Shown here: piece by piece, positions 25,061 through 62,059 of the stretch
How positions within the stretch are numbered: position 1 is the first letter of the stretch
Layout: the number at the start of each line of letters is the position of its first letter
Assembly: GCA_963377175.1 (NCBI GenBank)
Contig: CAUJNA010003737.1
Location: 1-64,000 of the forward strand
DNA: 64,000 bases
Direction of reading: 5' to 3'
From: Effrenium voratum
Taxonomy: Eukaryota > Sar > Dinophyceae > Suessiales > Symbiodiniaceae
Translations under genes and position numbers: made by a program
Notes under the pieces: generated by a model
Seen by the model: only the letters and a program-made list of their open reading frames with translations
Databases searched by the model: none
What the model was told of the DNA's origin: nothing

Positions 25061-25075
25061 CTCCAGGTATATAAT

Positions 25076-32860: not shown

Positions 32861-33672
32861 TGGCTGAAGCTTTACTAAATGCATATGAGGCTAGCCGCCT
32901 CCTTGCCCTTGCTCATCCGTGTATTGTTCACGATACGGCTCGGGTTGCTGCGGCGCATGGACAGGCGCATGTATGGGATCGCTGTCGAGCTGCTGCTCCA
33001 CGCATCGCCCGTACCAGTGGCATCGAATACTGCCGCAGTTGATGAAGCTATGCGATCGACACGTGCTTTCTGGCAGGACAATCCAGTTTCCTGGGATGAT
33101 CAATGGGACACTCTCCTAGCAAATTACAAGCCAGCTCTATCGCGGCACTGTGATCCACCCAACGCTGACGACATAATGAATGTCGTACGGTCGCCAGACA
33201 GTGCCCCGGGTCTGGACGGACTACCCTATGCTGCTTACCGTGCCGTGTTTCTTTTCGCTTTACGAGTTCTCGTTCGACGGTTACATGACTACATAAACCT
33301 GCAGGCTCCCCCCCCAGTTCAAGCGCTCGTATTTATTCCTAAGGCTGACGCAGGACCCTATGCAGACAACTTCCGGCCATTAGGGTTGCCGAACACTGCT
33401 GATCGTATCATCGATCAGGCCGTATATGTTAAATTGTATACTGCCCTTAGGGACTCCCTGCACCCTAGCCAAACACTCATCAACATTTTTAGGGAACCTC
33501 AGGGCAACTTCCTTGACATGCAGTCTTACTTGCAAGATCGTTCTGCCTCTTGTTTTGTTCTACTTTCTGATCTTGCTAAAGCATTCGAGCGTGTCAACCC
33601 GCACTGGATCCTACTTGTCTTACAGCACCCTGTTTGGTCGATCCGTGCGCCATCGAGTTGGGCGGTATTATA
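32752..33672 (+). pseudogene. LINE-A reverse transcriptase, N-terminal half
   Basis: Read over two frames (32752-33040, then 32879-33620). RT features: APGLDGLPYAAYR (thumb-side fingers motif), FIPKADAG...FRPLGLPNTADRIIDQAVY (motif 2), and LLSDLAKAFERVNPHWIL (motif A, Asp). After HWILLVLQH the sense continues in another frame as LFGRSVRHRVGRYY up to the insertion at 33672; the short spacing suggests a deletion. Continued at 55505. Confidence 0.75.
33669..33672. repeat. Target-site duplication TATA, left
   Basis: TATA at 33669-33672 and at 55501-55504 flank the inverted termini of the giant transposon. Removing the insert plus one TATA gives a continuous RT frame GRYY-RPPLPVRQG, which supports a 4-bp duplication. 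Confidence 0.7.
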
Positions 33673-33721
33673 CTGGGGTGCGTTTAACAATGTCGTTTAA
33701 TCGCTGTGTTTTTTCGTTTTT
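33673..33721 (+). repeat. Left terminal inverted repeat
   Basis: 49 bp matching the reverse complement of 55452-55500 with four mismatches, all transitions; the first 22 bp are identical. Confidence 0.85.
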
Positions 33722-34439
33722 AACTTTCTGGGAGATCTTGATAACCGCCTAAGTGGCTCTCAAAAGACTTTGAAACACTTGCTCAAATCGAAGTCTTCTT
33801 CACACGGTTGTCGCTTGCAAATGAAATAGTAAGTTCTGCCCCAGTAGAAAAAAAACAAGGGATTGAAAGAAACGAATCTCCAGGTCCAGTTGAGGGTAAA
33901 ACGCTGACACTTCTCCGATGGGATCCTTTTTTCTTTCCCCCCCGGAGGAGAAAAAAAACGAGAAAGGGAAAAACTCCTCCCTGCCACTTCTCCGTGCGTG
34001 GCTCGCGGAGCTGCTGCCACTGCAGCCCAGCCACGACCTGAGCCGGGGCTGGCGTGTGCGGGAGGTAGGGCGGACTGAACCTGAACGGCTGATGATGACG
34101 CCAGCCTTCATGCAATCTCTCAGTTTTTGCCATTGTTGCCCGGCAGCGGTGGATCAGGGTAGCTAATTACTACTGTACGGTACTGCGCCGCGTTCAGCGG
34201 CGTTCAGCGATCAGTGCATCACCGGCGATTATGTAAGGGTCAGCAAGCGCGGGAATCAGAGCCATCCCATGGATAGGCAAATCTCCTGAGTAAGCGTCAA
34301 GGGGATCATGGATGATCTTGTTGGAGCTTTGCCCTGCTACCTTAGCCCTTGTTGGCCCCAAAGCGCAGGACCAGGACAGATTCCCCAAAGCACAGACCCA
34401 AGGGAAATCTGCTTCTAGTTGGTTCTTACCAAGGCTCTT
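33722..34439. other. Transposon left subterminal region
   Basis: No supported gene. Contains CGACCTGAGCCGGGGCTGG at ~34034, the same 19-mer seen twice at 3.4 and 4.1 kb. A minus-strand open frame near 34194-34445 may be the last exon or 3' end of the methyltransferase gene. Confidence 0.5.
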
Positions 34440-36134
34440 TGACAACTCTTGTGGCCAGGGTCACGCACCAGGCGTTTCCCAAAGCCAAGCCCACCTGGCG
34501 CTTGGTCATGCCCTCGACCACCAACTCTGCGGGGCGATAGCCCTGCAGCTCAGCCATTTCCTAAGCTGTTTGTGTGTTATTTTTTCCCAACCAACATGTG
34601 TGCGTGGCTGAATGCGCAGGGCTTCGGACAGGGATAAGCAGCGTCGGTGGGATGTCACATAGTAGGCCCTTGCCCCTGCTCGGGCACGGGTCAGGCAAGG
34701 CGACCTAAGAGATGTAAAGAGGCAACCCAATCTTGACTGTGAAATTAATGATTGACAAGTAGCACGTCGAGGCTTGGCATGCCCTGGAACTTCTTGGAGG
34801 CACCGATGTCCACAACCCTTGGAATGCACAGGGGAAGCATTTTTTGATAAACGATACCTGCTAATAGGGAAAAATAATATTGGCAAGCAACCATGGCTCA
34901 CTGTCAGGGCAGCCTCCCCTTGCAAGGATCTTCTTCAGCCCGATCTTCAAATTCCTTCTGCCAGACTTACTTGTCGGCAACACCGTCTTTTTGGACTTCC
35001 TGGCAACAGCCGAATGAAAGTGCCACAACATGTTGAGCGCACAGTGGCAGGGCTCCTGCCAAGAATGTTTCGCAACTTGACGGTGGTCCGGGGTGATTTG
35101 ATCGGCGCCGGGAACTTGAAGGGTCCTTCCACGCAGTTCAATTTTCAGGCCACTTCACAAGCAGCAGCCGATGCGTTTTGCCGAGGCTCGAAGCATCTTC
35201 TTGCGCCTCAGGCCCACAACGTACAGGCGGGGCCGGCGTTGCGGCACCCCTCCATGAGCCAAAGCGTCAAGCACCTGCAACAAAACACTGAGGGTGGCAA
35301 ACAAAGGTAGATGGTGTTTAAGGCTCGGGCTGCCCAGTGGATAGCGTAAAAACTATTTGCCCGCAGCCTGGGCAAAGAAGTAAACAGAGCATTGCACATG
35401 GGTCTGTGTTTTTTGAGGGTGCTCCTTTTTCGTTGCTTAAAGGGACACCAAAATGAAAGCCACTCTATTGTACTGAGTTGAACTCCCCTAAAAAAAGCAT
35501 ACGGGTTTGAGCCTTAAGCAAACCAACTAGTGGGACAAGGGGCTTCTTCAAAAGCGATAGGAGGAATCCCCGGTGCCGCTTACCCATCAGAGTCTTCACA
35601 TTCTCTAGTATGAACGAATCCGGGCGCTCCTTCAGGATTCGCTGGACCACCTAGGCACTGAGCTTGTGAGCTTTCACTTTTTTGGGCATTTGTAACGGCT
35701 TATACTAAGTGGCGGCTTCCGAGATCTTGGCCCTGGGGTCTTTCTCGCCCTTTCCCAAGCCGATGGCACTGAAGGGCTGGCATGGTGCTCCAGCACCATA
35801 TATGTGCACATGTTTTTTCCAGCCTTGGATGCGGAATCAAAGGAGGTCACAATGTCAGCGTTGGCTATGCGTGGAAGGGCACAACTGGAGATAAGAAACG
35901 CATGTTCTTTGTGGCATCCAAGCTCTTAATCTCGGACTGCAGCAACTTGTTGAGGCGAACATCACTCTCCGAGGAGTAGTGAAGTTGGTAACCCAACTTC
36001 AAACGCTTGCAGCATGTGCTGAGCGGGCCCAAGCCCGCACAGTCTTCTGCCAGGACCAAGGGCTTTGGCAAGGGCATGGTCAAAATACTAAGGGGGATTG
36101 CCTTTGAGTCACCTTTGAGCCAGTGCTGAAACAA
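34440..36134 (-). pseudogene. Multi-exon cytosine-C5 methyltransferase in the giant transposon
   Basis: Exons read on the minus strand: ~36134-35900 with VLAEDCAGLGPLS (motif I) and SSESD (motif II acid); ~35840-35712 with YGAGAPCQPFSAIGLG (motif IV, catalytic Cys); ~35650-35560 with RPDSFILENVKTLM (motif VI, ENV); ~35300-35205 with AHGGVPQRRPRLYVVGLRRK (motif VIII), preceded by a TTGCAG acceptor; ~35141-34950 with FKFPAPIKSP (target-recognition side); and ~34540-34440 with KRQVGLAFGNAW (motif X), followed by GGTAAG. All core motifs are present in order, so it may be functional if spliced; exon edges are approximate and no start codon is assured. It differs clearly from the LINE-A and PLV enzymes. 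Confidence 0.7.
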
Positions 36135-37793
36135 CTAGCTCTGAAGGCAAATCTTGAACGGTTTCCTGACCCAATCAATGCAACTGCAAGTACACAGGCT
36201 TTTTGACCAGGGCACCACGCTTCTGTCAAAACCTGCCCGCATCAGTGTAGTCTCTCTCAGCTTATAGCGACCCTGACTGAGAGGTCTTCATGTGATGGGA
36301 TGAACTCAGACTGTGTCAGCCCTGCAGTGCTTCAAGCTTGGCCAGGGTCTTGCACTTGCCTTTGGCCTGCAATGAGAAAGGGATCATCCGAAGTCCCTCA
36401 GTCGTTTGTTACAGTAGTTGGGTTCCACCTCCGATAGAAACTGAAAGCTGGGGTTTGGGTGAGCCTAAGAAACAAGGCCCCTCCACCGCGAAAGTGCCTA
36501 CTGTTGAGGTCCCGAAACCGATGTGTTAAATACAGCTAAATTAGGGACGGGGGATATGGAGATGGGATGATGAGAACAACGCGTGTTGAACAACCTCGGA
36601 TTACAAAGTAACACGCGCGCACGTCGCAAAAATGCACCCGTCGCAAAAATAAACCTGTGGTCCACACGCAAACTTGCGCCCAAGACACGCACACGCACGC
36701 CCGAGCGCACACATAGACACAAACACTTTCGCACCCGCGTTGCGGACAACGCTTTGTCAAGGTAAGTCACAGCCGTGCCGCGCACACAAAAACATATGTC
36801 ACACAGGTACGCACGCATGCACGCACGCGCGCCTACAGAAACATGAAAAAGTCTTGCGTCCACGTTGGACAACACCTATGTCCAGGCGAGTCACACGACG
36901 CTTGCAAACACACACGCACGCAAACACACTGACACATCATCTTCACGCGTGTGCGCGCAAACTCAGCGCTTCAAGATTCATTTAAACCAGCAGCACGGCA
37001 GCACGGCAACTTTCTCCACATGCGAACGCTTGCGAGCAGACCAGCATGTCTCGCAAACACGCCCTTACCCCCAGACCCCTTTATTAACGGGAACCCCTCG
37101 TTGCGCAATCCGTTTGTTGCCAACTACCCCTCTGCCAATGCACATGGAACCCAAAGTTGGCAGGTCCATTTCCCGAAAGGAGGTTTCTTCAAACATGACG
37201 TGTCTTTGGTTTAATACTGGGTATAAAGCTATTCATTGAAAATGAGACAAGGTTTGCCTTCAGGGGCCCTTCCCTTCAAATAAGGTAGTCCTGCAGTTGG
37301 GCTCGATGACTACCGACTACGTGCTTTCTCCCACTACACTCCCTGCCAAACCAAATGTGAGACAAATGGGTCGACTGATGTGAGGGTGGACAATTTAAAC
37401 CCTTTTTTCAACTCGTCCTACTGCCCAATGAGCCAAGCTTGGGCTGCCTGCTGAAGATAGCACCCCTTTGGCAAAGATTTGTAGTTGCTCGTTATTTGGC
37501 ATTGTTTTGGCTACCAATTTGGGAAACCGGGGGAAATCAGTGAGGTGGCGGTCCAGTAAGCCAACCAATCAGCCAGCCAGCCACAGCCAGCCAGCCACAG
37601 CCAGCCAGCCACAGCCAGCCAGCCACAGCCAGCCAGCCACAGCCAGCCACAGCCCCAGCAGCCAACGTCAGCCAACAGCCAAACAACTAAACACAAGCCC
37701 TCAGGGACAAGCACAGCACGGCAAAGCAAGCAAGCAAGCAAGCAAGCAAGCCAGCACGCAGAGCAATAACAATCAGAGCGCAGGAACCGCAAT
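36135..37793. other. Transposon spacer with CA-rich and CAGCC repeats
   Basis: No gene is supported. 36600-36960 is rich in CACACGCACG-type words. 37560-37660 is a (CAGCCAGCCA) microsatellite and 37725-37760 a CAAG repeat. These last lie just 3' of the acidic/basic exon at 37794. Confidence 0.6.
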
Positions 37794-40700
37794 TTGATGA
37801 TGACGATGGCGCCTTGGGGCGGCCTCCTGACTTCGGAGCGGGTTCCTTCGTCGTCTTGTTCTTGGGCTTGGCTGCGCTTTTGCCTTTGGCCTTTGCCTTT
37901 GCCTTTGGCTTCCCACTACCCTTTGCCTTTTTTGGTTTTTCCTCGCTTTCCTCGCCGTCCTCAGCCTCCTCGCCAGCGTTTTCTTCCTTTTCGGTTTCAG
38001 CTGACTGGGCTTCCTCGTCCTCTTCCTCCTCTTCTTCCTCCTCTTCGTTTTCCTCCTCTCCTTCGTCCTGACCCTCGCTGCCCTCTTCGCTGCCATCATC
38101 GTTCTTCGCTTCCTTCTTGGATTTCTTCTCAGTTTTCCCTTCATTTGCCTGACGCGTTTTGCCAAGCTCTCAATGGTTTAATTGAATTGGAGGGGTCAAG
38201 TAAGGCCACAGGCCTTCTTATTCTTCCTCTTAGGGTGAAGGAGGGCGGCTAGGCCCGGTTCATAAAGGGGTGAATCCGACAGCTGCATGGCGCGGAAGGT
38301 CAAGTACTCCAATCTCTTTGTCAACAAGGCCACCTAGGCTAACAAGGAACCCAACTGAATTTGAATTTGCGCCAAGGGCAGCTTAGGTACGTGTTCCACA
38401 GTGAACGCCACCCCGACGTAGGGGACTCTTTTGGCAATGGCACAAAAGGCAAATTTGTCCGATGGGGCTAGGTCCAAAACCCCGCCGATGTTGAACTCCT
38501 CGTAGATCTCCTCCACCTGAGCTTTTTATTGGGCTTCAAGTTGAATCAGGATTCCGAAGTCGTTTTGTGTTCTAATGGCTTGTCGAAACACCGCTTCCTT
38601 CGGAAGGCTGTGATAGAGGACTGGCTCCTCATCGTCATCGCGGCGCCGGGTGCCTTGCGACAGGGTTAAGTTGTGGAGGGGCAACTGGGGGTAGCAATGG
38701 ACAATCCTGGCCTTTTTCAGTTTCATCAGCAGCATCGGGCTTTCCGCCCACTGGCACCCGGTTGGCCTTTCCAAAAAGGGCCTTCTTGTCGGAAAAGGGC
38801 AGCCTCCAACTCTTCAAGTTGTCCTTACAAATTACAGGTTGAACGTGCAAGCTTGTCTTGTTTGCAACACGTGTTGCATCATGGCTCAAAGTGCAAGCAA
38901 GGGTCAGTCCATGGCGGGGCAAGGATGGGCCCCAACACGTCTCCTTTGCTGCTGCCCTCGTAGGTTTTCCTTTTTTTGTAAGGGAAAGTAGCCTCCTCCG
39001 TGGAGCTTGTCAACACGTACATCCTCTCAACTTGGCACAAGGCGGAGCCACGATCACGTTGGCGGCGAGATCGTAGGGATTTCTCATCCCAAATCAGGTA
39101 CTTCACAGACTTGCTCTTTGTCAAACTCTCCGACTTCATGTTCTTCACTGCCGATAGCAGGGATGGACCCAAGCCTTGGCCAAACCTAGCTTCTTGGAGG
39201 GTCTTGAACCTGAATTATTATTGATCCCTTTCTTTCAAAAACAACAGGGGTGCTACTGCAGATGAAGGCTCCCTCTCGGCCTCCGTCCATGATCAAGAAC
39301 CCATCCCCAGGACGAAGTGTTTGGGAACCCTCTTTGTCACGCGCGTGAATGGCAGCCTGAAAAAGCCGTCCGTGCCTCCCTTCACGCAGAGGGGGAAGGC
39401 GCAGGTGCGGCTGTGTCTGTGCTTCGCCGCATGACTTGCTGTCCTGAGCCGGTTTCAAAGGTTCCCTGCTTCCAAAGTGTGTTCATTGTCCTTGTGACTC
39501 AATTCTTGTTGGCCAAGAAGCAAATATGATAGCAATGAACTTGCGCACTTCGTTCCTTAGCATCCACTGGGGTTCAACAAGCTCAAATCAGCAGGAGCAA
39601 ACACTGGAATGTGAAGCAAGTCTCGTTTCCGAATCCACTTCAGCGCTCCAGTCCGCAAAGGCTGTTGCAGCCAGCACGTCGGCCATCTTGGAGGCGTTGT
39701 CCTGCGCAGGCAGGCACGGGCACCAACGGCACACAGACACACAGTACTGATGGCCTCCTCAACCACAAGCTTGACGTGGGTTCTCACGGTTTGGCAAGCC
39801 TTTTCTTTGAACCTGGGCCAGAGGAAGGCTGTCATGAATCTAGGGCAGGAACTCAACTTAGATCTGGGCGTTTCCAGTTTCTTGGTGTTGTCTTCTGAAG
39901 CCAAGCGCTCCCGCAGAGCACTGTCCGCCTTGGAGCCCTGAGCCTGAGGCTCTCCATCTGTCTTTTTCTTCTTTTCCAACGAAATCACCTGGCATGCTGG
40001 TGTGGGATTCCCTGGAAAAAAACAAGAACAAAGGAATGCAAGTCAGTAGGTCTGTCGATTCTGAAAACAGAGGCCAACTGCCACGGAAAGGCGCCTCCAA
40101 GTGCTCATTGCCAGTTTGCTCTGCCTCGGTTGCCGCTTGCGTGGCCGTCTCTTCCTCAGGCTTTTGTTTGCTTTTCTTTCCTTCGCCATCCTCCGTGCAT
40201 AGCGAGAAGAAACAGGTTAGGAGACGAGTCAAGCATTGGGGTTTGCCGTGAAGTTCAGGGGGAAGTTGGATCCCTCCTTTTTCTGCTTTGAGTCCTCTTC
40301 CTTCTCGTACTGCCTTGTGTCGAAAGACTCGCAAAACAACTAATCAGCAAGCGTGGCGGGATTCGGTGGCTTCCAGTCAGGTTGCTCCTCTATGGAAGAA
40401 ATGCGGGCAGCAAGTTCCGCGTGTTCATTCCATTCGGTTACCTCAATGTCAATCAATCAGCATGCCAGCTTGTCGCGGTTACTCATCCACAACAGCAGTG
40501 CCAACTATTTTGCTCGTTGTAAGCCTTTTCAAAAAAACACAAGTCAGGCTACGTGAAAATGTTTTTTTGGGGGACCAATTCAATTCTAAGGGGTTGAAAA
40601 GATATAAAAAGATACCCCTGGAGGAGTCCCCAAAAAAGACACACCCATCATAATACAACTTCACATACCAGTGTTTGGATGGTTTCAGGGCAAGGCGCCG

Positions 40701-43700
40701 GCTTTCTGTGGCGCATCAGGTTCTTGAGCGTTTGCAGGAACGTGTTGTCAAAGAGCATATCCTTGCATCAGATTGTTTTGCAAGGCAAAGCCATCGTCCA
40801 AGCCCATCGTCCTCCAAAAATTGGAAGAAGAACTCAGCGCTGCGCGGCCATCCTCACTGGAAAACCGACCAGGGTTGGATTGCCGACCGCCGCGCCTGCT
40901 CTCCAGGTTAAATCTAGCTTCTGGCCCCTGTACCCGCAGAGCCTGGGCCGAGAAAGGGGCTGAGAGGGGGCTGTGGCAGGTTGTCTCCCTCAGCACAGTT
41001 CGATTTAATAGGCCAGGGGGCGTCCGATAATCGACATGGAGCACCGTTGCTTCACGGATTTTCTTCAGGATGCTCCCGTCAGAATCCCAGTTGGTCCACT
41101 GCCTTAAACATTCCAAGCAAAACACTCCCTTAGTAAGATGATTTGGTTAAGACCCTCTCAAGATTTCATGTCAAGGGGCGCGGCAGTCTTTCCAAGCACA
41201 TGGTCCCTCCAGTGCATCAGGGCAATACAAATGTCGACAGTGCCCTTCCCATTGAGGGTGCCGTTGAAGGCCCTCCATGTAAGCATGTCTGCCCCCAAAT
41301 GCCCGTTTTTCCAGCCATCATACCTGAGCGCGCAGGTCAGAAGGCAGAATAGTCTTAGTTAGTACCCCCCTCCGGCATCTGAGCCTTACTGCCTCATTGT
41401 TTACGGCCAAAGTGTGTAGGTGGCTGTGTGTGTGTCTATTTTGTTCAGGTGTCCAAGCTAAGGAGTTTGCTGGTTGCAGTGTTCAACCCCTCAAAGGTAC
41501 CAAACTGGTTTCTCACAACCGGGGCCACAATGCCAAGGATTGTTCAGAAAGAGTTTGTCTGACGTTCCGAGCAGTCTCTGAATGGGAAAGTTGTGTTTCA
41601 GCGGCTCTTTTTCAGGCGGCTTGTCACCCTTCTCTTTTTGTTGTTTAACGTTGGGCCGGGCATCTTATAGAAAAATCAGCAGGGTCTGATTGCGAGAGCT
41701 TCGAAGGGGAAAGTTGTGCTTCAACACACTGCTTTTTTTGTTTAACGTTGGTTGGGTTCTTGTAGAAAAATGAGCAGGGTCTTGTGAGAGCTTCCGGGCG
41801 GTCTCTGAAGGGGAAAGTTGTGTTTCAACGGGCGGCTTGTCACCCTGCTCTTTTTGTTGTTTAACGTTGGGCCGGGCATCTTATAGAAAAATGAGCAGGG
41901 TCTGATTGTGAGAGCTTCCGAGCGGTCTCTGAACAAAAAAGTTGTGCATCAGCTCTTTTTCAGGCAGCTTGTCACTCTGCTCTTTTTCTGTTTAATAAGG
42001 GTTGGGCATCTTTTAGAAAAATGAGCAGGGTCTTGTGAGAGCTTCCGGGCGGTCTCTGAAGGGGAAAGTTGTGTTTCAACGGCTCTTTTTCAGGCGGCTT
42101 GTCACCTGCTCTTTTTAACGTTGGGCATCTTGTGGAAAAATGAGCAGGGTCTTGTGAGAGCTTCCGAGCGGTCTCTGAAGGGGAAAGTTGTGGTTCAACC
42201 CCGTTTTTGTTTAACGTTGCTGGGGCATCTGGTAGAAAAATGAGCAGGTCTTGTGAGAGCTTCCGAGCGGTCTCTGAAGGGGAAAGTTGCGTTTCAACGG
42301 CTCTTTTTAGGCGGCTTGTCGCCCTGCTCTGTTTTTGTTTAACGTTGGGCATCTTGTAGGAAAATGAGCAGGGTCTTGCGAGAGCTTTCCGAGCGGTCTC
42401 TGAAGGGGGGAAAAATGAGCAGGGTCTTGTGTGAGCTTCCAAGTGGTCTTTGAATGATGGGGGAAGAAGCCAGCTGGCGATATGTGGCGGTTGGTCAGCT
42501 TTTTCACCTTCCTCGGGACTCCCTCCTCTCAACCAAAGGGGACTACTGGAAAAGACGTGTTGCCTGACGAACATTCAATCAGGGCACCGTGGGAAAATGA
42601 GTCGAATGAACATCTCTAGAACCAATATGACAAACAAGGCTGGGAATGAGTGAGGATATGTTCTTCTTAACGCGTGGCGAGGGACACAGCGTGGAATGCC
42701 CAGAGCAAATTGTTCGATGTCCTTGCTTTGTTAACGATCATCTGGAGTTTCGTCCAGTTGTTGAAGGGGTTGTCTTCCGTGTTTTCCTCATCCGCAGTCA
42801 GCAGTAGCTGCAAAAGGTTGTTGTTGCTAAACACCCGACGCCCCATTGTAATGGCAGTGTCCACGAATGCGTCGGTGACCTTTTCCTCCTCATTGGCGGC
42901 CTTGAAGCTTGCACTGTAGGCTTCGCAGAACGCGGCAACACCTGACTGCAATGATCATGTTTGAATTAGCCGCGGAGTTCTGGAGCCTGTGCTCATGACA
43001 CAATACAAGAAACATTAAATACAATGACAAGGAATACAATCAGCTCAGCTCAGATGAGGCGCGCATTTCACCTTTGGCCTTTTCCATGCGTGCCTTGCAG
43101 TTCAGAACAGAAAACATTTTTTGGAGAGTGGTGAGGGCCAAATTCTCCTTGTCTGAAATCAGGTTCTGCCTAATGTTCGCAGCCATGAAGTAGATATCAT
43201 CATCTGCGGTAGCTGTCTTGTACTCTACCGACACCTGCAACAAAGGCACAGCTTAGGTTGTTTAAATCCAACGGCCTGGGTTGAACTTGACTTTAAAGTA
43301 CCGCATGAGTCCAACCACTTCAGATTCAGCTTGCGATTTGATAATGAGTGCCCCGCTGACAACGCGAACGATTTCCACGCTGCAAGCTTCTCTTCGTCGT
43401 TCCTGTCGCGGTGGATAGACCTTGGTAGCGGGGGTTCCGTTTTCAAAAAGTAGGCCTAGACTAGCGACATAAAACTCCAACACTCCAACGTGCTCATTCT
43501 GGTTGGGCCGAGCTGCAGAATGAAGGCCATTATGTTTTCTGGTGGGCTGATGGGTTTTGCTTGAAAAGCTTGGCACCCGTTTCCAACCCAGTCGTTCACA
43601 GGAGGGACTGCAATCTGAAGAACTCCATGAAAGGGCGATGGTTTGGCATAGTAGCGATCCGAAAGGTCGTTCAAGGACTTGTGCCGCAAAGGGACCTAAC

Positions 43701-44312: not shown

Positions 44313-44404
44313 TGAAGCACTAAGACAAACTCGTTCTTGATCCTTCTTGCCGGCACAATGGGCAAAGGCTTAAGACACCCGATGCAATGAACCAGCTGTT
44401 TTTA

Positions 44405-44750: not shown

Positions 44751-47329
44751 GAACAATGAATTTGAGGCTACTCGGAGTGTTCTGTTTTGACTGCTGCGTG
44801 CCCCGCAGAGCTGCCCCTACTACTGGCGCCTACTACACCCCTGAGGCCTACCAGCTCCCCCTAAACATCGCTTTCGATGTGTCAACCTCCAAAAAAAAGC
44901 TGATGGCATCCTCAGCCGTCATCTTCAGAAGGATATGGGCCAGTTCCTTGCCAATTTCTTAAGGGAAACTTGAAACACTCAGCAAAACTAGGCGGCAGCA
45001 TTTCATGCGAGAAGTAACTTTGGGCAAGGTTCACGGTCGGTGCGTTGCTCCGTTTCCGTGACAAAGGCCACAGCGTTCGCAGCAACGGTCTTGAACCTGT
45101 TGCACTTTTCCTTAGCAGTTTGCAAATTGTGTCATAGAAAAAGTAGCTTGGCATGGTTGACCGTGCCCGGCCCTGGTTCACCTGCGACGGAGTTTCCAAA
45201 AAAGCCTCCTTCTCATTCAGGACCCGCCAAGGCGGCGAAGGAGCGGAGGCCAGGACCGCAGCTGATCGGGGGTGGGCGGCTTGAAACGCCGGACTCACCC
45301 AGGCAGTCCTCGCAGCTTTCGCCTGCCTGCAGATGAAGCACGTGTTCGGGGAAGCCCCTCCTTTTTTGATGTTTGCAGCTTGGGTGCTTGTATGAAATGA
45401 GGGCGCCACTTGCGCCCTGGGTGGTGATGTACTCGGGACTCACCGCTGCCCTCAGGACTACTTACTACAACAACGGTCTCATAGCCTTTTTCAACTTAAA
45501 CACAGAGACCCAGTCTGCAGTGTCAGTCCAATTCACCCTGTTCACTCTAGCGCATGGTCGTCAAAAAATCTAAACTACCTACAAACAAGACACACAGGGA
45601 GTAGCTATAACCTCCCAAGTAGGTAAGTCAGGTGGCCCCTGAAGAACGCGCCACATGAAAGGGCCGAAGAAACCCTATTTCAACATGCGCAGACGGGCGC
45701 ACTGCGGCGCCCCAAAAACGAAGGCTGCAAATGCGCCACTGGTGCTCAACTTGTTGGGCTGACGTTGAACGACAGCATCAAGTGGCCTCATCGCGTGGTC
45801 GAGACGATCGCTAAAGCCCCAGGGCCCGGTAGTAACATAGTTAGTCACTATTGCGTGTTGGTCGCTAGGGGGTAAACCCGCCACATGTTGGCAGCGAGGG
45901 ATCAAGCAACGCAGGGTTCCCCAAACGTTGAAAGTGTTTCATGGGATGTTGGCTCTTTTCCACCCACATGTATGATGTCACGAATTGGCAAAGGTTTCTA
46001 AACTTGACTGCTTTGACTTTACAAGTTTGCAGCGAAGGGTAAAGCAAGCCAGGGCTCTCCGTTCTGATATGGGCCACCTGTTGAGGCAAGGGATTGGGCA
46101 TCACCTACTCTTTCAAAAGACAGGACCTGACGAGAGTAAACGAAGAAGGTGCCCCAATTCAGCCATGCTAGCGGTGGCCTCTACCAAAAGAGGTCAAATG
46201 ACTCCAAAGGCCAGTTGAACAGGCGCCCTTGTTTTCTTTCGTCTGGGTGGTTTTGCCCTGAAAAAGGGCGCCTGTTAAACTGACCTTTGAAGTCAGCCGG
46301 GTATATAGCCGAAGAAGTGGACATTGTCTTGACCCTTGTCTTAGGTGGTCCCCACACTTTCCAAAACCAATCGTAAACAACTCAGTGACCCCACGGCGGC
46401 CCCTACTCTTTCAGAAGACAGTAACCGAAGTAACTTTAGGACCTACAGAGGCTTCCCCAGCTTCAGGCCCCCCCCCCCCCCCGGGTGAGTGCTCCAACAA
46501 AGCAGGGTTTCGCCAAGCGCCCCTAGTTTCTTCCAAAGGGCGGTTGCAACCTGCGTTTGGCCCCCAAGGCTTGTAGAGCTTGAAGCAGCTTCGTTGTAGC
46601 CAAGCTGGGCGGCACCAACACCCTTGCTTTGCTCAGATAGCCCGGTGCAACAGGTGGTGGGCCTTGACAGGCAGCCAATCTTGAATGTTAACACTTAGTA
46701 CTAGCCTGGCTTGAAGTTTGCAAAGTGTGTCTTGTGAAGGCTTTTCCCTCAACATTGAAACTTTGGACTCACGGTGTGCGCCTTCGACTGCCGCATTGCC
46801 TGGGCGACAGGAGGATTCTCACTTTGTGGGCTTGAGAGTACCCGCTCACAAGAAAGCTAGGGTGGACCAGAGGGGTCTCTCCAAAGAAATGTTACCTGTT
46901 TGTTGAACCTCCCTGTTCCTTCTTGTTTTTAGTGGACTGGGAGAACAGCTGCCAACCTAAGCTTTGTTTGGGTTCATTGAAGGACACCAATAATGGTCGC
47001 AAGAGGCAGGCAACAACAGTAGACAAACATAACTAGTCCCTGTGAATTCTTAACCACGCATCCAGTCCATGTCAAGCCGCGCTTGGCAACATCTTTTAAG
47101 TACGCTGTCTTCCTCTTCTTGGCCGCTTCACCGTGCGCCAAAGCTTGGGCAGCTAATTTGCGCTTGCCATCTTTTACCAGCCCCTGATTGAACGCAAGGA
47201 TGCCTGGGCTGACAAGAGATTAGACACGAGGTTCCCCTGATGTGAGGCATGCAATATGCTCAAATAATATTCAACTGCATCAATGAATGTAGTCCGAAGC
47301 ACGTTTTGACTGAAGCTTTGACTCATTGA
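44751..47329. other. Transposon interior with exon-like fragments and a hairpin
   Basis: Minus-strand frames at ~45190-44910 (RARSTMPSYFFYDTICKLL) and 45443-45215 could be further exons but show no domain. 46200-46228 and 46266-46294 are 29-bp inverted arms (three mismatches) around a 37-bp loop. A run of 17 C is at ~46469. 45850-46060 has related GCAGCGARGGRTMAAGCAA words. Nothing else is supported. Confidence 0.5.
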
Positions 47330-49446
47330 AGTGCTTTTCTTTTTCGTGCCGCTTGGACCACAAACTTGCGGCCATCTTGCTGATCCGCAATCTAAGCCCT
47401 TTGTCGGCCCCAGCCTGTTTGGAACCCTGTGCATTTGCGACTGCGTCCCGCACACTGGTCCTCCTCTGCCTGAGCCATTCCTCTGCATTCTGCGCCTTGC
47501 CTTCAGGTAGCTTCGCTCGGCGCTGGTAGCAGAGGCGCTTGGTGGACTCGGCAAAGCCAGTGGCCATTTTTGTGGAGGGGGGACCCACCCAAAAGAAAGT
47601 GGCAGGTTCCCGTTTGGGCTCCCATTTGAAACAAGTACAAATCAAAATTCAACACATGCCTTCAATGGAAAATCCGGGGTTACACGAGTTGACAAGGATC
47701 AATTAATTGTGTGAAGAGACCCCTTTTGCAGGAAGGGGACGGACGGACAAATGCACGTCACAGTACACAGTCATGTTTGCGCTGCTCAATCACGGGTTGG
47801 GCAAGTTTGACTCTTTGCCTTGCACGCGCAACACAGTAGAAGAAGCAGGTTGCCGGTTCAGAGCCAGGGTGCTTTTCTGTCTGACCCATAGTGGTTCGCC
47901 TGGCATCGGACATTTAGACTATTCCCCTCTTGAAACTCAATGGCTCTTGAAATTTTTCATGCCCAACGATCAAAGGTTCAGTACTCAAGACCCGTACCCG
48001 TACGCATTACGAAATTCATGGGCCAAGCTGCCCACTCCAGCTGAGCCATGCGGATAAGCCTCAGCTGTAATGATTGCCTGTAATGATTGCCCGTTGGTCT
48101 CAAAGGTTGCCCCTTTAAATGATACAAGTAACTCTGCGCGCTCGCCTTCTGGAAAGCAAATGGCTCTAAGCTCGTCATTGGCAAGATCAGTGGTCACCTC
48201 TCGTTTGCCTTTGAGCCACCCACCTGCTGGAAAAGTCCTCTCAACCCCTGAGGAGCTGAAGCCCCACGCGAGGCATCGTGTGATCACGTAGTGAAGGTGG
48301 CCAACTTCGCGACGGGCCTTCTTTTCCAAACGAACCTGATTGGCCATGGAAAGATTTTGGGCCCCTCGAATTGCCAAACAGCGTCAAAAGCCATGTTAGC
48401 TGGGCAGCAGCTTGGCTCCACGCTTCTAAGGGGCGTAGACCGTTCTTTTGCTGGAGCGCCTGCGCGACAGGCTTCACGCTGCGCAGTTGCAGGGCGAGTT
48501 CTTCCTCAGAAGGCGGGCTGGGTTGGGTAAGCGCGGTGCACTGGTTCCACAAGTTGGTGTCAAGGCCCTTGGTTTTTTTCCTCCTCTGTTTTCTGTTTAG
48601 AGCGTCCCCAAAAAATACAGCTTTTCAAATCCCAGACCCCAGCCCAAGCCCTCAAGCTGCACTGCAGTCAATGGGGTCTCTAGGGAACGAAACACACAAA
48701 CTTGACTAGGTTGGGAAATTTCATCAACTCAAAGCAGGCACATCGCCAAGCTGAAGAGAAATCAATATGCCTGGAGACAAACTGCTAAGCTTCGTGCGGC
48801 GGCCGAGTCGCCGCTGGGCGCTTGAAAAACACAGATAACCGTCGGATGACTTCATCTCCCCGGCGCTGGGTCATGTTCTGCAAGTCGTCAAGAAACGCCC
48901 CCATGACGTTAAATATCTCAAAATCCGGGATTTCAGCCTCAACCGCGGTACGTACAATGGCCACCCAGTTCTTCATCCTGGGCGGGGTTGGAGGGCAACC
49001 ACCAAATGACGACGGCAAAACGCATAATTTTTAATCGAAGGCAGTAAAAAAAAGAAGGAACTTCCGTGTTGCGGCAACTAATTGAAAGCTAGCTCTCTGA
49101 GTCAGATGACAAGAGACGGAATAATAAGCCCGCGAGAAAAAATGCGCGCGCGCGTGTGGTGGGGGAATAGAACGCGCAGAGCAAAAAAGGCGTGGCCCTG
49201 TGCGTGAACTGGCGTCTCCGGAGACGTGAAAGCTAGCCTGTTCGCGGCATCTGGTCGGATCATGTTCGGACGGGGTCGGACCGCGTTCGGCGCCGGGCCC
49301 ATTGGCACGGCAACGCAGAGGTTTCGCAAGGTTTAAATTGCGTGGCAGGCGCAGCATTTTAGGCAAGGTCGGGTGCAGATCTCATGGCGTGGGCAGCATT
49401 CTCGTGGTCGAGTGCAGATTTCGTGACAGGCGCAGCACTTTCGCAA

Positions 49447-50095
49447 GGTTAGGTGCAGGTAGAGATAGCTACATAGATGGATAGATAGATAGATAGAAAA
49501 TACATACAGATAGATCAACTCAATAGATAGATGGATAAACAGATAGGTGGAGGTAGAAGATTGGCAGATAGATTGATAAATACAGAGGGATAGGTAGGTA
49601 AAACGAGAGAGACAGACGACAGAGAGATAGATAGAGAAAAAGAGAGAGATAGATATAGGTGGATGGATAGCTAGATAGAAAGAGAATATAGATAGATAAA
49701 AAGATATAGGTGGATAGATGGATAAAAAAAAGAGATAAAAACAGGTTACAGATAGATAGATAAATATAGAGACACAAATACTTGAGACATAGACTCATAT
49801 GGATGGATAAAAGAGAGATTAAAGGTTGATGATTAAAAGAAAGAGGACAGATAAAGAAATAGATAGAACGAGAGATGAGATATACATATAGATAAATAAA
49901 TAGATAGATAGATAGATAGAAAAATAGATAGATAGATAAATAAAACAAGACATAGACAGATACACAGATAGATAGATAGATAGATCGATAGAGAAAGATA
50001 GAGCAACATAGATAGTTAGATAGATAGATGGATAGATAGATAAATAGACAGATAGATAGGTAGCTAGGTAGGTAGGTAGGGAAGAACGAAAAAAT
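49447..50095. repeat. GATA/TAGA microsatellite region
   Basis: About 650 bp of interrupted GATA repeats (GATAGATAGATA runs at ~49480, 49900-49935, 49965-50050) with AGAGA patches, in a presumed intron of the transposase. Open frames on the minus strand are pure SIYLSIYLS shadows. Confidence 0.9.
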
Positions 50096-51481
50096 GACGG
50101 AAACATGAGAAATAGTGAAAAGGAAGAAGAAGAGAAACAGTATTTATGAAAAGAAAGAGAAACACATCTTAGTATTTATGATTGAAACTTCCGCCCACCG
50201 GCTTCGCCAGCTCTGCTGGTAGTGATTCTCTGATGTCACCCTTAAACTCGGACAAGGTACCTACCCAAGACTTTGTCTAAGAGGCTTGGCTTGATCTTGT
50301 GGCCGCCAAGGCTTTTCACCCGGTTGCCAGGCAGTCTCACCAGGAAAGGTGCATGTTCCAAACGATTCCTTAGGGATCGGGGAAGCGCGAAACTGGACTA
50401 TCCTGTAGGCAAAACCGGTTCCAGTTCAGATGGAAATGGGACTGTAACTTCACCTGACAAGGATCTTCGCCTCAATCAACCGAGCAGGTTCGTCATAGTT
50501 AGGCTTCCACAACCGACTGCAGCAAAGAGGCAGCATCGTGGATGCGTACGTTCCATGGGTCCCCCAGAGCGCGCCCTCGCAAAACAGGAACTCGATTGTT
50601 TGTAGAAACCTTGGCCACTGTTGAAAACAAAGCGGCAACACCGATAAAAGGCGCAAGAACCCGGCCCCAACTTGGCGAGTTGAACCCTAAATGAGGTTTG
50701 CAAAGAATATAATAAGCGCGCAACAATGTCTTGCCAAGTAGCTTCTCAAGCTGAGAACGAAGGCTGAGAAGATCAAACCCCTCCGAGTCCGCCACGCGAA
50801 GCAACCCCATGTGCTCGTCCAAAGCGTCCGCGACGGACGCCAAAGTCCTGAGCAAACCACGGGGCCAGTAAAACCAAAATAATAAACGAAATCAGCCGGG
50901 AATCAACACGCATTCGACATCTATTCTCGTGAGAAACGCCAGGCAGGCAGCGCCCTCAGCCTGCACAACGCTCGGCCAGTTACAAGTTCAGGCGCCGCGG
51001 TAAATTCGAGCCTTCGATTTCCGTTCAAGAGCGATCTCCTCCTGAGCCATGGGAATGACAAGCAAAGCGCGAAGCTCGCCGAGAACGCGAACTCTTAAGC
51101 CCGCCAAGAGGCACAGGTCTTCAAAATAGATGGAAGGTGTAGGCACGTGCGCCCGATTGGTGTTCTCAACGACTCAAACCTTGCAAGACGTCAACGAGCT
51201 TAACTTAGTCGTATGGTGGTTTTCTTTGTCCACTTAAGGCAGCAGCCTGTGTTTGGCCGCGCTCAAACTCTTGCATGTCCAGCCTTTGTCAACCTTCACG
51301 TGAGCGCTGAACCTCGCCTGGCGACGCCGAGCATTGCCGCATGAGTACCAAGCTGACTTCAAGCAACGCAGAGCGTAGCGCGCCGCTGCAATAATATGCG
51401 CAAGCCGCTTTTTGCCCCGATCTTAATTGTGCACGTTCTAAAATGGGCTAGAAAAGCACCGATGAAACTGAATGTAATCAC

Positions 51482-52375
51482 TCAGTAGAAGGATGCAAAG
51501 GATCGGTGCAAAGGAGGCCTTTGGCCGACCAAGCTGTTGTGCTGCGAGCTCTTCGGCGCCCCGCCATGAATTCGAGTTTCCTCGTCATTGATTGGGTTGT
51601 CGCCCTCGTTGTCTGAGTCACTAACAAGAAAGGGCTGGGATCCCCATGAAGCAGCAGAGGCTGTAAAGAGAGTCTTGTCGCCATCGCTGCGCCAGGTTTC
51701 GCACTGGGTCTCATCGTCTTCGTCTTGGCACCGAGGCGCGGCCGTGAGCACCTGCGCCTCGTTTCTCGGAGCCGTGAGCATGACCATACTTTTTTCCAGG
51801 CGCGAGGTAGCTGCCGAGTCCAACCCCCATGGCTGGGATTCAAAGAAGCTATCCGGGTTGTTGACGGGCTGGGACTCGTCCATCCATAGGGGGCTACCAT
51901 CAACTTGGGAAAGTAGGAGCTTGTCGTTGTAGTCGAAGATACCAGTAGGCTGGGAATCAGGGTGGGGATGATGTGCCTCCGGGGAATCAGGCTCTAAGTC
52001 AATCTGGGTGTCATCAAACTGGGTGTTTGGCCACTCATCATTGTTGCCCTCCAAAAAGTTCACAGCCACCCCAAAGCTCCCAGAAGACTGGAGCATCGAA
52101 GCTTCAATGGCAAGGTCTAAGGCATCGCATGACGGCTGGCTGGCGAAGTTCTTTTCAACGCCACCCCGCACTGAACGACAAGCAGGCGTGCGACAGGACG
52201 AGGCAAGCTTTGGTTTGTCAAACTGGTTGTGTTTCACTGCCATCAAGTTTGGGATTTTGTTCAACAACACCTCGCCGCGTGTCTTGCTCGATGCCATTGT
52301 TCCAGCTAGGCCAAAGCGCACCGACGGGCTGAGGGCTGGTTTGATCCAAACAAAATCCCATTCAACAATGTTCAA
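51482..52375 (-). CDS. Acidic SQP-repeat protein (up to 297 aa) in the giant transposon
   Basis: The longest unbroken frame inside the transposon (51482-52375). A more conservative start is MASSKTRGEVLLNKI, ~25 residues in. The second half repeats short (D/E/G)SQP motifs (HPDSQPTG, DESQPVNN, FESQPWG, GSQPF) within an acidic, Ser/Asp-rich, probably disordered background. It lies between transposase exons on the same strand, so it may be an exon of that gene or an intron-nested gene. No family recognised; SQ-dense acidic regions can be kinase targets or activation domains, which is only a guess. Confidence 0.5.
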   Translation of the reverse strand: MNIVEWDFVWIKPALSPSVRFGLAGTMASSKTRGEVLLNKIPNLMAVKHNQFDKPKLASSCRTPACRSVRGGVEKNFASQPSCDALDLAIEASMLQSSGSFGVAVNFLEGNNDEWPNTQFDDTQIDLEPDSPEAHHPHPDSQPTGIFDYNDKLLLSQVDGSPLWMDESQPVNNPDSFFESQPWGLDSAATSRLEKSMVMLTAPRNEAQVLTAAPRCQDEDDETQCETWRSDGDKTLFTASAASWGSQPFLVSDSDNEGDNPINDEETRIHGGAPKSSQHNSLVGQRPPLHRSFASFY

Positions 52376-54007
52376 TGGACAATGTTAGGTCATTTTACAC
52401 TGCAACTTGACAGCTGTCCAATGTCCCAGTGGCTCGGAAGCGACACGAAACTGAAGGCCCTGCCTTGAATAAATCTGAGTGCTCAATCAACATCGCCGGG
52501 GATCTTTTGTTTTTCACAAACAGCTCCAGCCTCAGATGACACCAAGCTGAAGTGAAACCCTGAAAGTTGTTTAGACCAGACCACTGCGGCTCTGTTGCAT
52601 TTCTGCGATGTAATCATCAGCAAAGGTCGATCGTGATGCAACCCTGGCAACAATGGTTTCGTTTTGACAGCTGTTTTGAGGGAGGGGGTGCCCTGCAAAC
52701 ACCCGAGCCTTCGTATGGCGTGTGCCATATCTCGGACACGAAGCTTGATGTGCTTAAAGTAGGAGCGGTCCACCAAGTCCCCAGATAAGGCTGCCTGGGC
52801 ACTGGTGTGCAAAATGGAGAAAACGTAAAGCGTGTTTCAGGGAGAGTGGCCAACGCCAGTTGCTCATCAGCAGCACTGTCGGCAGTTAGAGCTTCGACTT
52901 TGTCGCGCAGAATCGGCTCCATTTTTTTGTAAGATGTCCTTACTTGGCTGGGGTCGGGCTTAGCAACAAAACCCTGCAATAAATTCCACACGCGCCCCCC
53001 TCTCATAATGGGACAAGCTTCCGAGGAACTCTGCTGAATGGCATAGGTGAGTCAGGGCAGCAAAACGATTCAACTATCAGAGTTGTTGCTTCCCGGATTT
53101 TTAGGGCATGAAACTGCTTCAGCCCCGCCAAGAAGAAAACACCCATGAAGTCGTGCCGGCTTTCCAGTTTGTCATTGGCAGACCCGAATCGAAGGCAGAG
53201 CCAGCCTTTCGAGGCATCCTGAACCAGACTAATCGAGGACGCATCTGACCTCAGCTGTTAACTGTTTCGGTTTGATTACGTTACACCCTGCCGTTCTCTT
53301 GAAAGCAGCTCAGTGGCAGCCAAATAATTGACAATTTCCGGGCCGCCTCGCCCAAACACGCCTTCATCTTTCTCATTTTTGTGCGTCCCTCGGGCCGAGC
53401 GTGCATCAAACGGAAATACTCATGTATGACTTATTGCTGAGTGTGGCCCAACTTCCATCGCAGGTTGAATGCGAGGATTTTCTCATCTGTTGCAGCAACC
53501 GTTGGAACAGCTCGGCCGAGGGCACCTAACTCTCACAGCAAAGGACCCTCATTGGTAAATATTGATAATACTGCGAAAGCCCCTTTCAAGCAAAATCAGC
53601 CAAGCAGGAAACTGAGCGCAACGCCACCTTGCCATTCACCATCCTAAGAGGTCCTGCGCCAGTCAGGAAGTTAGCTGCATGTTGGTGTTCCTTGGTGTCG
53701 TTGTGTTGCTCCAGCTGCTGCCGTCGAACTTTGACTACCTCAGTGAGGATTAGAACGCAGTTTCAACACCGAAGCTTTAAAGCCAATGTAGTTGAAAGAC
53801 ACGTGCGTTCAAGTTTCAAGGCTACCAGTGGCGAGTGGCCGTTCGGCCAGCCCTAAAGCGGCCCCACTGTGTAGTGATACCGGCTTCTGCGCATGTTGTG
53901 CATCCAAGGCCCGATCGGCCCAGTTGCACCCAGGGATAATCTTCTTGCCAATCATCTAAATGTTTGGCAACATGGCGGTGCCAGTCCTTGGATGGCTCAT
54001 AATACAC

Positions 54008-55451
54008 TTCTGACGCAACGCAACCGTGATAGCCCTTGGATGTCCAATGGTTTTTGAAGAAACGATTTCAACTGCATTCGTCAAGGCACTGCCCACTTCT
54101 TGCTGTCCATGCGGCCCATGTTCAGAGCCAAATGCTCTGGCGGTATAAAAAATGATCGCAAATATGAATGATTCAGTGGCTTTCTGATTCATGCTTGCAT
54201 GCACCATTATGCCAGGACCAGGGTGCAGCAAATTCACGTTCTGCCAAACTGGCTTGTTTCCAATTCACCGGACCCCATTACCAATTTCCCTGATACTAAT
54301 TAATCGGGGCTTTAAATCCCTAAGTAAACAAGGTGAACACGGGAAATCAGGGGCCTGGAAACAGGAGTTTTACGGCTTCTGCTTTGCCTAACGGACCCAA
54401 ACCCTGCCCAAACCACCTTTCCGCCTCCTGCGTCTTTGGCGCCTACTGACTAGCACAAGTTGTCAGCCCAAACAGCTGCCCATTTGCAATTTGCAGCTTC
54501 CAACCCAACTTCAACAAACATATTCTTCGCAGAATTCAACATCCTCAAAACTGGAATGGCACCCCTCGAGCCAAGAAGTTTGCGTTTCACTAAGCAGGGA
54601 AGATACAAATGACAAATAAAAAGGTTGAGAGCCCCAGTCTTGCCACAGCCCTTGCTGTGGAGCCCGGCCAGGCTGGGAGCTGCAGCGGCAGCAGCATCAG
54701 CGGGCCACGCTCGGCGACCCTTTTCCCCAGCTCCCTCTCGGAAAACAACTTGTGAAACACCCTTCTCCTGGCCCTAAAACTTAGATTTGCTTTTTCGGAG
54801 TTTGGGGCCCTAACTAGCTGTGCTTGGGTGTTCGTTATTGGTCTCGCTCGAATTCATTCCGGGGAAACCTCATCCATTGCCAGCTTCCCGAAGAAAACCC
54901 CGATTTGCCAAGTTGGTTGATGTTTAACAGTTTTTTTGATTGGTCTGCAAGAATGACACGCAGTTTAATTGAGACCACGTCTGCCGGGAAACTTTAAACA
55001 CTGAGTAAGTGGTTTCACGATGACAATGTTCAGAACAACAACCCCTTGTATTTAAGCAGGCCCCCTGATGAAGAACTCAGACACACCAGCTTCGCAGTCC
55101 CAAAGCTATAAGGGGTGGGGAGGAACTGTTCAAAAGGGGGCAAGTTCCAGAATCATTGCAGGCCAGGCATAGCAATCTATCCGACAAATGTGAATCACCT
55201 ACTTAGACGTCTAGCTTTTGTTGCCGACACCTTCATTGAAAGCATGGCTGGGTGAAACCTAGGTAAAGAAGTATCACAGGAACCTTGACAAGTCAATGTC
55301 AGAAACACATTGGTTGAACGAAAAGATGCAAAGTTGAATCCATAAATGGTAAAGGGGTAAACCTTGAAATTAAGTTGTTCAGTGACAAACCTTGCCGAGT
55401 CAATTAGCGTTGTTCCTCAAATATGCCAGCGACACCCATCAAGTTAGAAAC
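54008..55451. other. Transposon right subterminal region
   Basis: One minus-strand frame (54237-53956: ESFIFAIIFYTARAFGSEHG) could be an upstream exon. The rest shows no gene. This is where a promoter for the minus-strand transposase would be expected; I see no clear element. Confidence 0.5.
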
Positions 55452-55500
55452 AAAAACGAAAAAATGCAGTGATTAAATGACATTGTTAAACGCACCCCAG
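55452..55500 (-). repeat. Right terminal inverted repeat
   Basis: Inverted copy of 33673-33721 (45 of 49 bp), followed by TATA at 55501-55504. Confidence 0.85.
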
Positions 55501-56985
55501 TATAGACCCCCTCTTCCGGTTAGGCAAGGGGTTGATATGGGGCGTGCTGTGTCGGTGCTTCTTTTCTGTGTTGCTATGGACCCTGTGTACGTCAACCTAA
55601 ATATGATCCCGCGGGTCATCAGTGTCAAAGGATACATGGATGACAATGCTACGTGTGGAGAAGGAGTGAGCTGGCTGGCTGAGGCTGCTTGGATGTGCTT
55701 CGCGCCGAGCTTATCTTTCCCGCAATGACGTGCCTGACTTCTGCAGTGGCCACCCTCGGTTACAAGAAATCTGGCAGCATATGCTTACCGTCGAGTGCAA
55801 GTGCAAATGCAAGACTCATCTCTTGAGCTCCCGCTCCATTGACTGTGCTGAGCTATGCGCCGCTGATGATACGCCCTGGGGTGCGCGTGTCCTCTCCTCT
55901 GAGGCCGTCATGCTAGGCCTCCCCTTGCATGGCCAGGCGCATGCGTTTGGAGTTACCCTGCCTGAGGTCAAAATCGATGCTAAGCCGCAGGCTACTTGTG
56001 ATGCTCGACTCAGAATCATGCGGCGCCTCAATCTCTCAGTTAGGGAACGAGGCATGTTTTGTGCCTTTTATCTTCAGTCCACTTACGCTTACGCTTATAG
56101 CGTGCAATGGCCTACTAAAGAAGCCATGCACCGACATCGGCGCATGTTGTCACGCGCTCTCTACCCAGCTAGAGCCTGGATTGACATGCGCGCGCTGCCT
56201 GAAGTGTTGCGCTATCTACGCATTGCGCCCATTGTCGTGCCGTTAAGGCCGCCATTGGTCTCGCTAGTCGTTTGCTCCCCAAATCATGTGTCATGGGAGA
56301 CTGCCCTCTCACGGCTGCCACCTGCTATTGTACAGCAGCTTGGATGCATGCTGCGCCTATTTCCTGGCCTGAGACAGGTGTGGAATTCCTGTCCCAATGG
56401 CAAATCTGTTGCCACTGCTATGAAAGCCCACCTCGTCAAATATCTTGACACACTAGAAGAGGTCACTGCGGTCGGCTTCCTTACTAGGCGCATGGCCACA
56501 GCCGCGTGGAAAGATCGCTCTGATATCTCCTTTCTCACTTCTCTTCACGGCTTACCTCACAAGGTTGTTCTGCCAAATGTTCGTCAGGCAGTGCTCAAAT
56601 GGGCTCTGGATGACGAAAGTGACACGTGGTTTTTACTTCGGCGCCATTGGACTCGCGAATCTCTGTGCGCTTGTGGATGTGGACTCAGCAGTAAATATTT
56701 TCCCAACGGGTTCTTCGCAGGGGTTATCGCACTCCGCCATATCGATATTGAAATTGAATGGATGCGTCGTGTCCCTCACGCTGCAGTTAGCTTGGGAATA
56801 AATATACAACCGCTCCCGCCTCTACCTACCATGTCGATCTCCCCTCCGGAGCTGCGGCATGAGGGGCCCTCCGGAGCTGCGGCATGAGGGGCACCTTGAA
56901 TCAGCTACAGCACTCCTCAACAAGTCTGCCCCGTGGCTGAAACGCCCGTGTGTACTTTGTGGCCAAGGGGACAACAGCAGCATTG
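55501..56985 (+). pseudogene. LINE-A reverse transcriptase, C-terminal half
   Basis: Directly after the transposon the frame reads RPPLPVRQGVDMGRAVSVLLF (motif B, with GVDMG typical of dinoflagellate LINEs) and VKGYMDDNAT (motif C, catalytic YMDD at ~55637). One frame change near 55725, then a long C-terminal region to 56887 including RESLCACGCG (Cys-rich). A further frame holds KRPCVLCGQGDNSSID (~56940-56985), a CxxC end piece cut by LINE-B. A tandem 25-bp duplication (CCCTCCGGAGCTGCGG...) is at 56843-56892. Confidence 0.75.
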
Positions 56986-58329: not shown

Positions 58330-58362
58330 GTCAGTGCCTCACACCTAAGGTGTGAAACTTGG

Positions 58363-62030: not shown

Positions 62031-62059
62031 TGGAAGTTGTAACTACGCAGGTCCAGCAT

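Follow-up and report, generated by a model that had tools for sequence, protein, structure and literature searches.

A giant, recently mobile DNA transposon in the dinoflagellate Effrenium voratum, very probably encoding its own hAT-like transposase

The window analysed here, i.e., the first 64,000 nucleotides of contig CAUJNA010003737.1 of Effrenium voratum, harbors a 21.8-kb unit that is located at two unrelated sites of the genome, with exact ends and a different 4-bp duplication at each of them; in the window it lies within an older long interspersed element (LINE), referred to as LINE-A. This unit is very probably a recently mobile giant dinoflagellate DNA transposon encoding its own transposase, and the protein sequences of its predicted exons are conserved in a related family of transposons.

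The element proper spans positions 33673-55500 (21,828 bp) and is bounded by 49-bp terminal inverted repeats (TIRs). The features of its borders are the following:

33669..33672, no strand: left copy of the target duplication, TATA (single TATA at the uninterrupted LINE-A loci)
33673..33721, plus strand: left TIR, 49 bp, starting CTGGGGTGCGTTTAACAATG... (identical end in the second copy)
55452..55500, minus strand: right TIR, 49 bp, identical to the left one at 45/49 positions (same end in the second copy)
55501..55504, no strand: right copy of the target duplication, TATA (arm comparison and LINE-A loci)
32879..33672, plus strand: LINE-A reverse transcriptase (RT), left of the insertion (RVT_1, E-value 1.6e-06; empty site)
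55505..56887, plus strand: LINE-A continuation, right of the insertion, with RT motif B VRQGVDMG and motif C YMDD (join and empty-site loci)

The two arms (33669-33721 and 55452-55504) are inverted stretches of 53 nucleotides, 92% complementary, whose outermost four bases are TATA on either side. The 49-bp inverted ends with flanking TATA claimed in an earlier note on this DNA, whose interval 33669..55504 includes both TATA copies, are therefore real, with 45 of the 49 positions matched in the alignment. All four mismatches fall at three CpG sites and appear to be of the C-to-T type on one or the other strand, as expected under CpG methylation. Among 19,872 random pairings of 100-nucleotide stretches of the window, two scored higher (95 and 160) than the TIR pair (86); the sequence used as background contains the near-perfect palindrome 44399-44756. 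When up to three mismatches are allowed, a 17-mer of the TIR matches the window twice, exactly in both cases, and at least two matches were also obtained in 2 of 100 shuffles; the same 17-mer has seven exact matches in viral contigs, by estimate about the level of chance.

The site as it was before the insertion can be recognized exactly. The in silico removal of the element and of one TATA leaves an RT stretch that is open across the join, LFGRSVRHRVGRYY-RPPLPVRQGVDMGR...YMDDNATCGEG. All the ten LINE-A loci fetched from the genome are continuous through the join, nine of them reading TATA-GACC with a single TATA, while the tenth (L027), which is more diverged, shows TTTA and a 1-bp gap. Eight of the ten were also compared in a separate alignment; the window copy of LINE-A is devoid of 41 bp just upstream of the join, which are present in eight other aligned copies. 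Since this loss shifts the frame before LFGRSV, the frame of the window copy is kept only locally. The exact empty site described in the earlier note is borne out by these loci, and so is the order of events (the element after LINE-A); of the in-frame rejoining of the RT it had also proposed, the opening across the join stands, the reading frame being a local one.

The genome (1.156 Gb, 3699 contigs) was searched using 301 bases across the left junction as a query, which disclosed, besides LINE-A copies, one more complete copy on the minus strand of C2424 (C2424:633327-655157). This second copy (21,831 bp) is 99.8% identical to that of the window, end to end in one alignment; in a mafft alignment of the two, 27 columns are mismatches and 15 are gaps, some of them clustered, and the mismatches include 20 transitions, 5 of which are of the CpG kind. 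Its flanks are unrelated to those of the window copy and its 4-bp duplication is CTTG rather than TATA, which decisively confirms the boundaries of the element; moreover, since the two copies are nearly identical, the whole 21.8-kb unit must have moved recently, together with its contents. The left and right TIRs are 92% identical in either copy and no TIR difference exists between the two copies, so that the differences between left and right TIR were inherited from a parent copy. Searching the genome with 62 bases of the TIR retrieved at least two copies, both already known. The inverted ends, the duplication of fixed size, the exact empty site and the copies elsewhere are those of a TIR DNA transposon. 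Owing to the precise empty site and to the 99.8% identical twin, the order of the events and their recency can be checked directly. The giant TIR transposon with several genes and a 4-bp duplication that the earlier note had described is in this way corroborated, the second pair of TIRs it suggested looking for having been found with the same ends, unrelated flanks and a different duplication.

Besides the transposase gene, the element harbors a gene for a C5-cytosine DNA methyltransferase (DNMT) and a third gene unit, referred to as G2. Family X (C527, C1291, C2157; 22.6 kb at C527) was retrieved by searching the genome with the DNMT exons; when translated, it is collinear with the window element (family E) from 54.0 to 34.4 kb, the DNA alignment being limited to a short simple-repeat stretch; family Y (C58, C3390) is collinear with the element as well. 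A profile built from the transposase segments of E and X was used for a protein search, where it matched a single protein among 7999 candidates scored, i.e., P0003 (1021 amino acids, aa; E-value 4.4e-143, 36% identical). The contents of the element are listed below:

44860..53986, minus strand: transposase gene, intron-split (predicted exons), collinear with residues 45-1014 of P0003 (tblastn of P0003; exons kept in family X)
53670..53986, minus strand: N-terminal finger of the transposase, C-C...H-H, GLGCTTCAEAG ... EQHNDTKEHQH (conservation; Pfam zf-C17orf113 at E-value 0.017 at best, below the cut-off)
53216..53218, minus strand: proposed first catalytic Asp, SLVQDASKGW, D192 of P0003 (conserved in X and P0003; assigned by eye)
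52878..52880, minus strand: proposed second catalytic Asp, LTADSAADEQ, D277 of P0003 (conserved in X and P0003; by eye)
52720..52731, minus strand: C/DxxH-like motif DMAH, being DLAH in X and DLCH in P0003 (by eye)
48240..48242, minus strand: proposed catalytic Glu, SSSGVERTF, E647 of P0003 (conserved in X, Y and P0003; by eye)
38211..44007, minus strand: G2, intron-split gene with no function assigned, possibly comprising several genes (exons conserved and collinear in X and Y)
34429..36077, minus strand: DNMT gene, intron-split (predicted; Pfam PF00145 at 4.5e-07, HhaI match, exons)
35883-36077, 35711-35830, 35525-35656, 35161-35295 and 34429-34566, minus strand: DNMT segments with motif I, PCQPFS, ENV, QRRPR and GNA, respectively
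37690..38169, minus strand: low-complexity open frame, acidic and then Lys/Ala-rich, belonging to G2 or to the DNMT gene, or a separate gene (Y has a comparable stretch in this position)
49463..50079, no strand: AGAT-type microsatellite within a transposase intron (repeat scan)
41523..42432, no strand: repeated units of about 120 bp between conserved exons (repeat scan)
44399-44756: near-perfect palindrome, perhaps a nested foldback element, with 140-bp arms 97% complementary, a 78-bp spacer and smaller inverted repeats within

All three gene units are on the minus strand, with which the conserved exons agree; a codon-usage scan also pointed to the minus strand in 10 of 12 segments, but it is dominated by a microsatellite. 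In the conserved stretches (five repeat-like stretches and the acidic region being left out), the identity between E and X at the first, second and third codon positions is.59/.68/.38 for the transposase,.62/.74/.39 for G2 and.50/.66/.35 for the DNMT, and the two have the same base at 127 of 408 four-fold sites. The low identity at third positions and four-fold sites, compared to that at positions 1 and 2, indicates selection on the protein, with silent sites saturated. As to the single genes, the Pfam scans of the element (six frames, with X at stops) gave a sole match above the cut-off, that of the DNMT, whose segments in family X match PF00145 at 1e-11; matches below the cut-off to Securin, DUF3253, PFF1_TM and DUF4236 (E-values 0.002-0.05) were taken as chance. 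A protein search with the DNMT returned one weak protein. The idea that this gene is a frameshifted pseudogene was dropped, the breaks fitting short introns and the exons being kept in X and Y. No Pfam match was obtained for the X segments of G2, and three small exons at 45.3-44.85 kb, considered as the start of G2, were rejected, as the alignment with P0003 places them in the transposase.

The ends of the related elements resemble those of the window element. In X, at C527 and C2157, they are CTGGGCCG... and ...CCACCCCAG, with duplications TAGT and AAAC; a third family with defined ends, W (C3323:335426-353537; 18,112 bp), has ends CTGGGGTGTGG... and ...CCACACCCCAG and the duplication CTTC. 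The inverted repeats of W align over all the 600 bases compared, with a score permitting one mismatch, so that its TIRs are at least 600 bp long; its transposase, in a sequence read in part (the middle 7.5 kb excluded), matches P0003 at 24%. The families E, X and W share the ends CTGGG...CCCAG, and a 4-bp duplication was found in five of the seven copies examined at both ends (TATA, CTTG, TAGT, AAAC, CTTC). The same cargo between TIRs, whose search the earlier note had proposed, is represented by family X, with its collinear exons and CTGGG...CCCAG ends.

In hAT transposases the motifs D, D, C/DxxH, R and SSxxERxFS follow one another in this order, the E being preceded by a large insertion. 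In P0003 the motifs assigned by eye are D192, D277, DLCH (310-313), HRF (374-376) and E647, with spacings of 85, 36 and 370, and the counterpart of HRF in the window element is AAKHR/RFESL. The order D, D, DxxH, R, E of the putative element transposase resembles that of hAT, and it is on these motifs that the hAT-like enzyme of the earlier note holds, the match to a hAT Pfam model being missing: the hAT models, including that of the C-terminal dimerisation domain, did not match the E/X composites or P0003 at E-value <= 10, in searches with HMMER, whose filters can lose weak matches. Nor did the PDB sequences match P0003 or the hAT-like exons, and a protein search with a single frame of the latter gave nothing at E-value <= 0.01. 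A single-sequence AlphaFold model of P0003 has a mean predicted local distance difference test score of 38.6, too low to be used. The transposase is hAT-like in its motifs, but probably belongs to a clade of its own.

In order to assess how often transposase and DNMT genes occur together, the genome was searched with both, scoring the best 45 of 1829 candidates for P0003 and the best 150 of 517 for the DNMT, so that the counts are lower bounds. The 50 rows matching P0003 merge into at least 45 loci and the 115 DNMT rows into at least 102, the merging having joined pieces of one place only. At 25 of the 45 transposase loci a DNMT lies within 25 kb (chance expectation about 0.4% per locus), on the same strand in 25/25 cases and downstream in 24/25. 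The 45 loci include both copies of the window element and many same-family copies, which are not independent; by eye, the linked loci represent about 13 families. Many relatives of the transposase have a long intronless open frame (883-1021 aa for the five best rows), such as that of 1010 aa at C989:34725-37754. Very long open frames with transposase similarity exist at C2535:380158 (2312 aa), C3560:149063 (2137 aa) and C3655:232553 (2891 aa), and are possibly fusions of the transposase with other domains. Many of the DNMT-like loci are open frames of 160-508 aa that form near-identical sets, and DNMT retrotransposons may be among these loci.

These elements might represent a clade of eukaryotic DDE transposons that is new at the level of a superfamily, with a size of 18-23 kb, ends CTGGG...CCCAG, 4-bp duplications, a hAT-like transposase of about 1000 aa and lineages repeatedly carrying a C5 DNMT, a proposal that we consider evenly poised. 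That the element is instead a true hAT member, whose enzyme shifted to a 4-bp stagger, is a serious possibility, to be held tentatively. The element shares with hAT the N-terminal finger and the TIRs and, to judge from the motifs assigned by eye, would also share the motif order, D, D, DxxH, HR[F], SSGVERTF with spacings 85/36/370 being hAT-like. In addition, hAT variants with 5-, 6- and 7-bp duplications (hAT5, hAT6, hAT7) are described in excerpts of PMC12730594, where a hAT7 group carrying TET/JBP provides an example of DNA-modifying genes within elements of this kind. Against a true hAT speak the duplication of 4 bp versus 8 (5-7 in the variants), the missing matches to hAT Pfam models (E, X and P0003 proteins) and to the PDB, the size of 18-23 kb and the C5 methyltransferase. 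Moreover, hAT TIRs have ends of the YARNG kind, whereas those of E, X and W are CTGGG.

It is improbable that the unit is a non-autonomous Pack-type element, i.e., that the TIRs enclose host genes by chance and the enzyme is provided from elsewhere; the introns, the microsatellite and the repeat of about 120 bp inside it, and the TIR query yielding at least two copies, would fit such an element, but X and Y share its genes, their order and their strand, with selection on the protein, and a transposase gene is among those enclosed. Even less credible is a Polinton/Maverick or another virus-like element. The giant size (18-23 kb), the several genes and the TIRs (at least 600 bp in W) are features in common with Polintons (PMC6431247, in part). 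In contrast, the six-frame scans of the window element gave no Pfam match to polymerase (polB included), integrase, protease, capsid or ATPase at E-value <= 0.05; the enzyme is another one and the duplication is of 4 bp. The piggyBac and Teratorn elements target TTAA, unlike the targets of this element family (TATA, CTTG, TAGT, AAAC, CTTC). Lastly, a segmental or assembly duplicate is scarcely conceivable, since, although the copies retrieved are just these two, 99.8% alike, the similarity stops exactly at the TIRs, the flanks are unrelated, the 4-bp duplications differ and the target is uninterrupted at 10/10 LINE-A loci.

Some observations weigh against a mobile transposon encoding its own enzyme. 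No Pfam transposase model matches the proteins of the element, of X or P0003; splicing, expression and enzyme activity are putative, and so is the intactness of the copy. Two of the seven copies are devoid of terminal bases and of a duplication: the X copy C1291:991594-1014184, whose right end is 4 bases shorter and whose first left base is also different, and the W copy C1013, whose right end is 33 bases shorter, as a result of either aberrant insertion or later trimming. The ends of family Y were not found, the similarity reaching the edge of the fetched DNA with no TIR seen, and neither were the N-terminal two thirds of its transposase; similarly, no TIR was found in 31501-46500 of C989. 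Finally, at 20 of the 45 transposase loci no match to the DNMT is found nearby.

If the element is a DNA transposon encoding its own transposase, the latter, through its finger and the D, D, E residues, would bind the CTGGGGTG... ends and, as a DDE-type enzyme, cut the element free at its CTGGG ends; the element would then be joined to target cuts 4 bases apart, whose repair would yield the 4-bp duplication. With less confidence, the DNMT might act for the element by methylating its DNA, most likely either to match the CpG-methylated host genome or to keep the element quiet between moves. The genome of Symbiodinium is mostly CG-methylated, according to excerpts of PMC5890265, and its LINE and DIRS retrotransposons contain DNMTs (SymbioLINE-Dnmt and SymbioDIRS-Dnmt3); DNA transposons with a DNMT are mentioned there for marine viruses. 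The window element shares with the former the C5 DNMT on a dinoflagellate mobile element, but they have an RT, whereas it is a TIR DNA transposon in which the six-frame Pfam scans of 33669-55504 gave no match to RT, all such matches being outside. DNA transposons equipped with a DNA-modifying gene are an already known kind: TET/JBP genes are carried by eleven lineages of fungal DNA transposons (PMC12730594, in part), having, as here, a cytosine-modifying gene beside the transposase. In that case the gene encodes a dioxygenase rather than a methyltransferase, and the KDZ elements have 7- or 8-bp duplications (same source) instead of 4 bp. Searches of the open-licence PMC papers disclosed no publication in which such a host, enzyme, ends and duplication occur together. 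Should the proposed clade be real, a large population of dinoflagellate DNA transposons would write its own epigenetic mark, representing the DNA-transposon counterpart of DNMT retrotransposons, and this could account in part for the pervasive CpG methylation of dinoflagellate genomes. With a DNMT on giant DNA transposons, it becomes testable whether mobile elements are self-methylating and contribute to the unusual methylation of these genomes. Besides, a hAT-like enzyme with a 4-bp stagger would be moving elements of 18-23 kb, far above the 6 kb of cargo beyond which transposition efficiency falls (review, PMC6431247, in part).

As for the host, the 21-base sequence that we take to be the dinoflagellate spliced leader has 251 exact matches in the genome, compared to none for the reversed control, which indicates a dinoflagellate. 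A dense same-strand array of these 21-mers, often about 136 bases apart, is located at C722:109307-122977 and is probably an array of spliced-leader RNA genes.

In the window, a second LINE (56941-62699, RVT_1 at 1.2e-12) adjoins LINE-A on the same strand; BLASTP revealed no similarity between the two RTs. Scans of viral contigs with the LINE-A RT and with P0003 disclosed no relative. The GC-rich left part of the window (about 65-68% G+C) contains, at 8552-10832 on the plus strand, an open frame matching HNH endonuclease (9.7e-05), followed by another that matches a superfamily-1 helicase/AAA domain (6.8e-14). Two tandem arrays, 25073-25707 (247-bp units) and 26199-27054 (204-bp units), are made up of units 97-99% alike and have the motif GAACTTGGACAAG in common, in opposite orientations.

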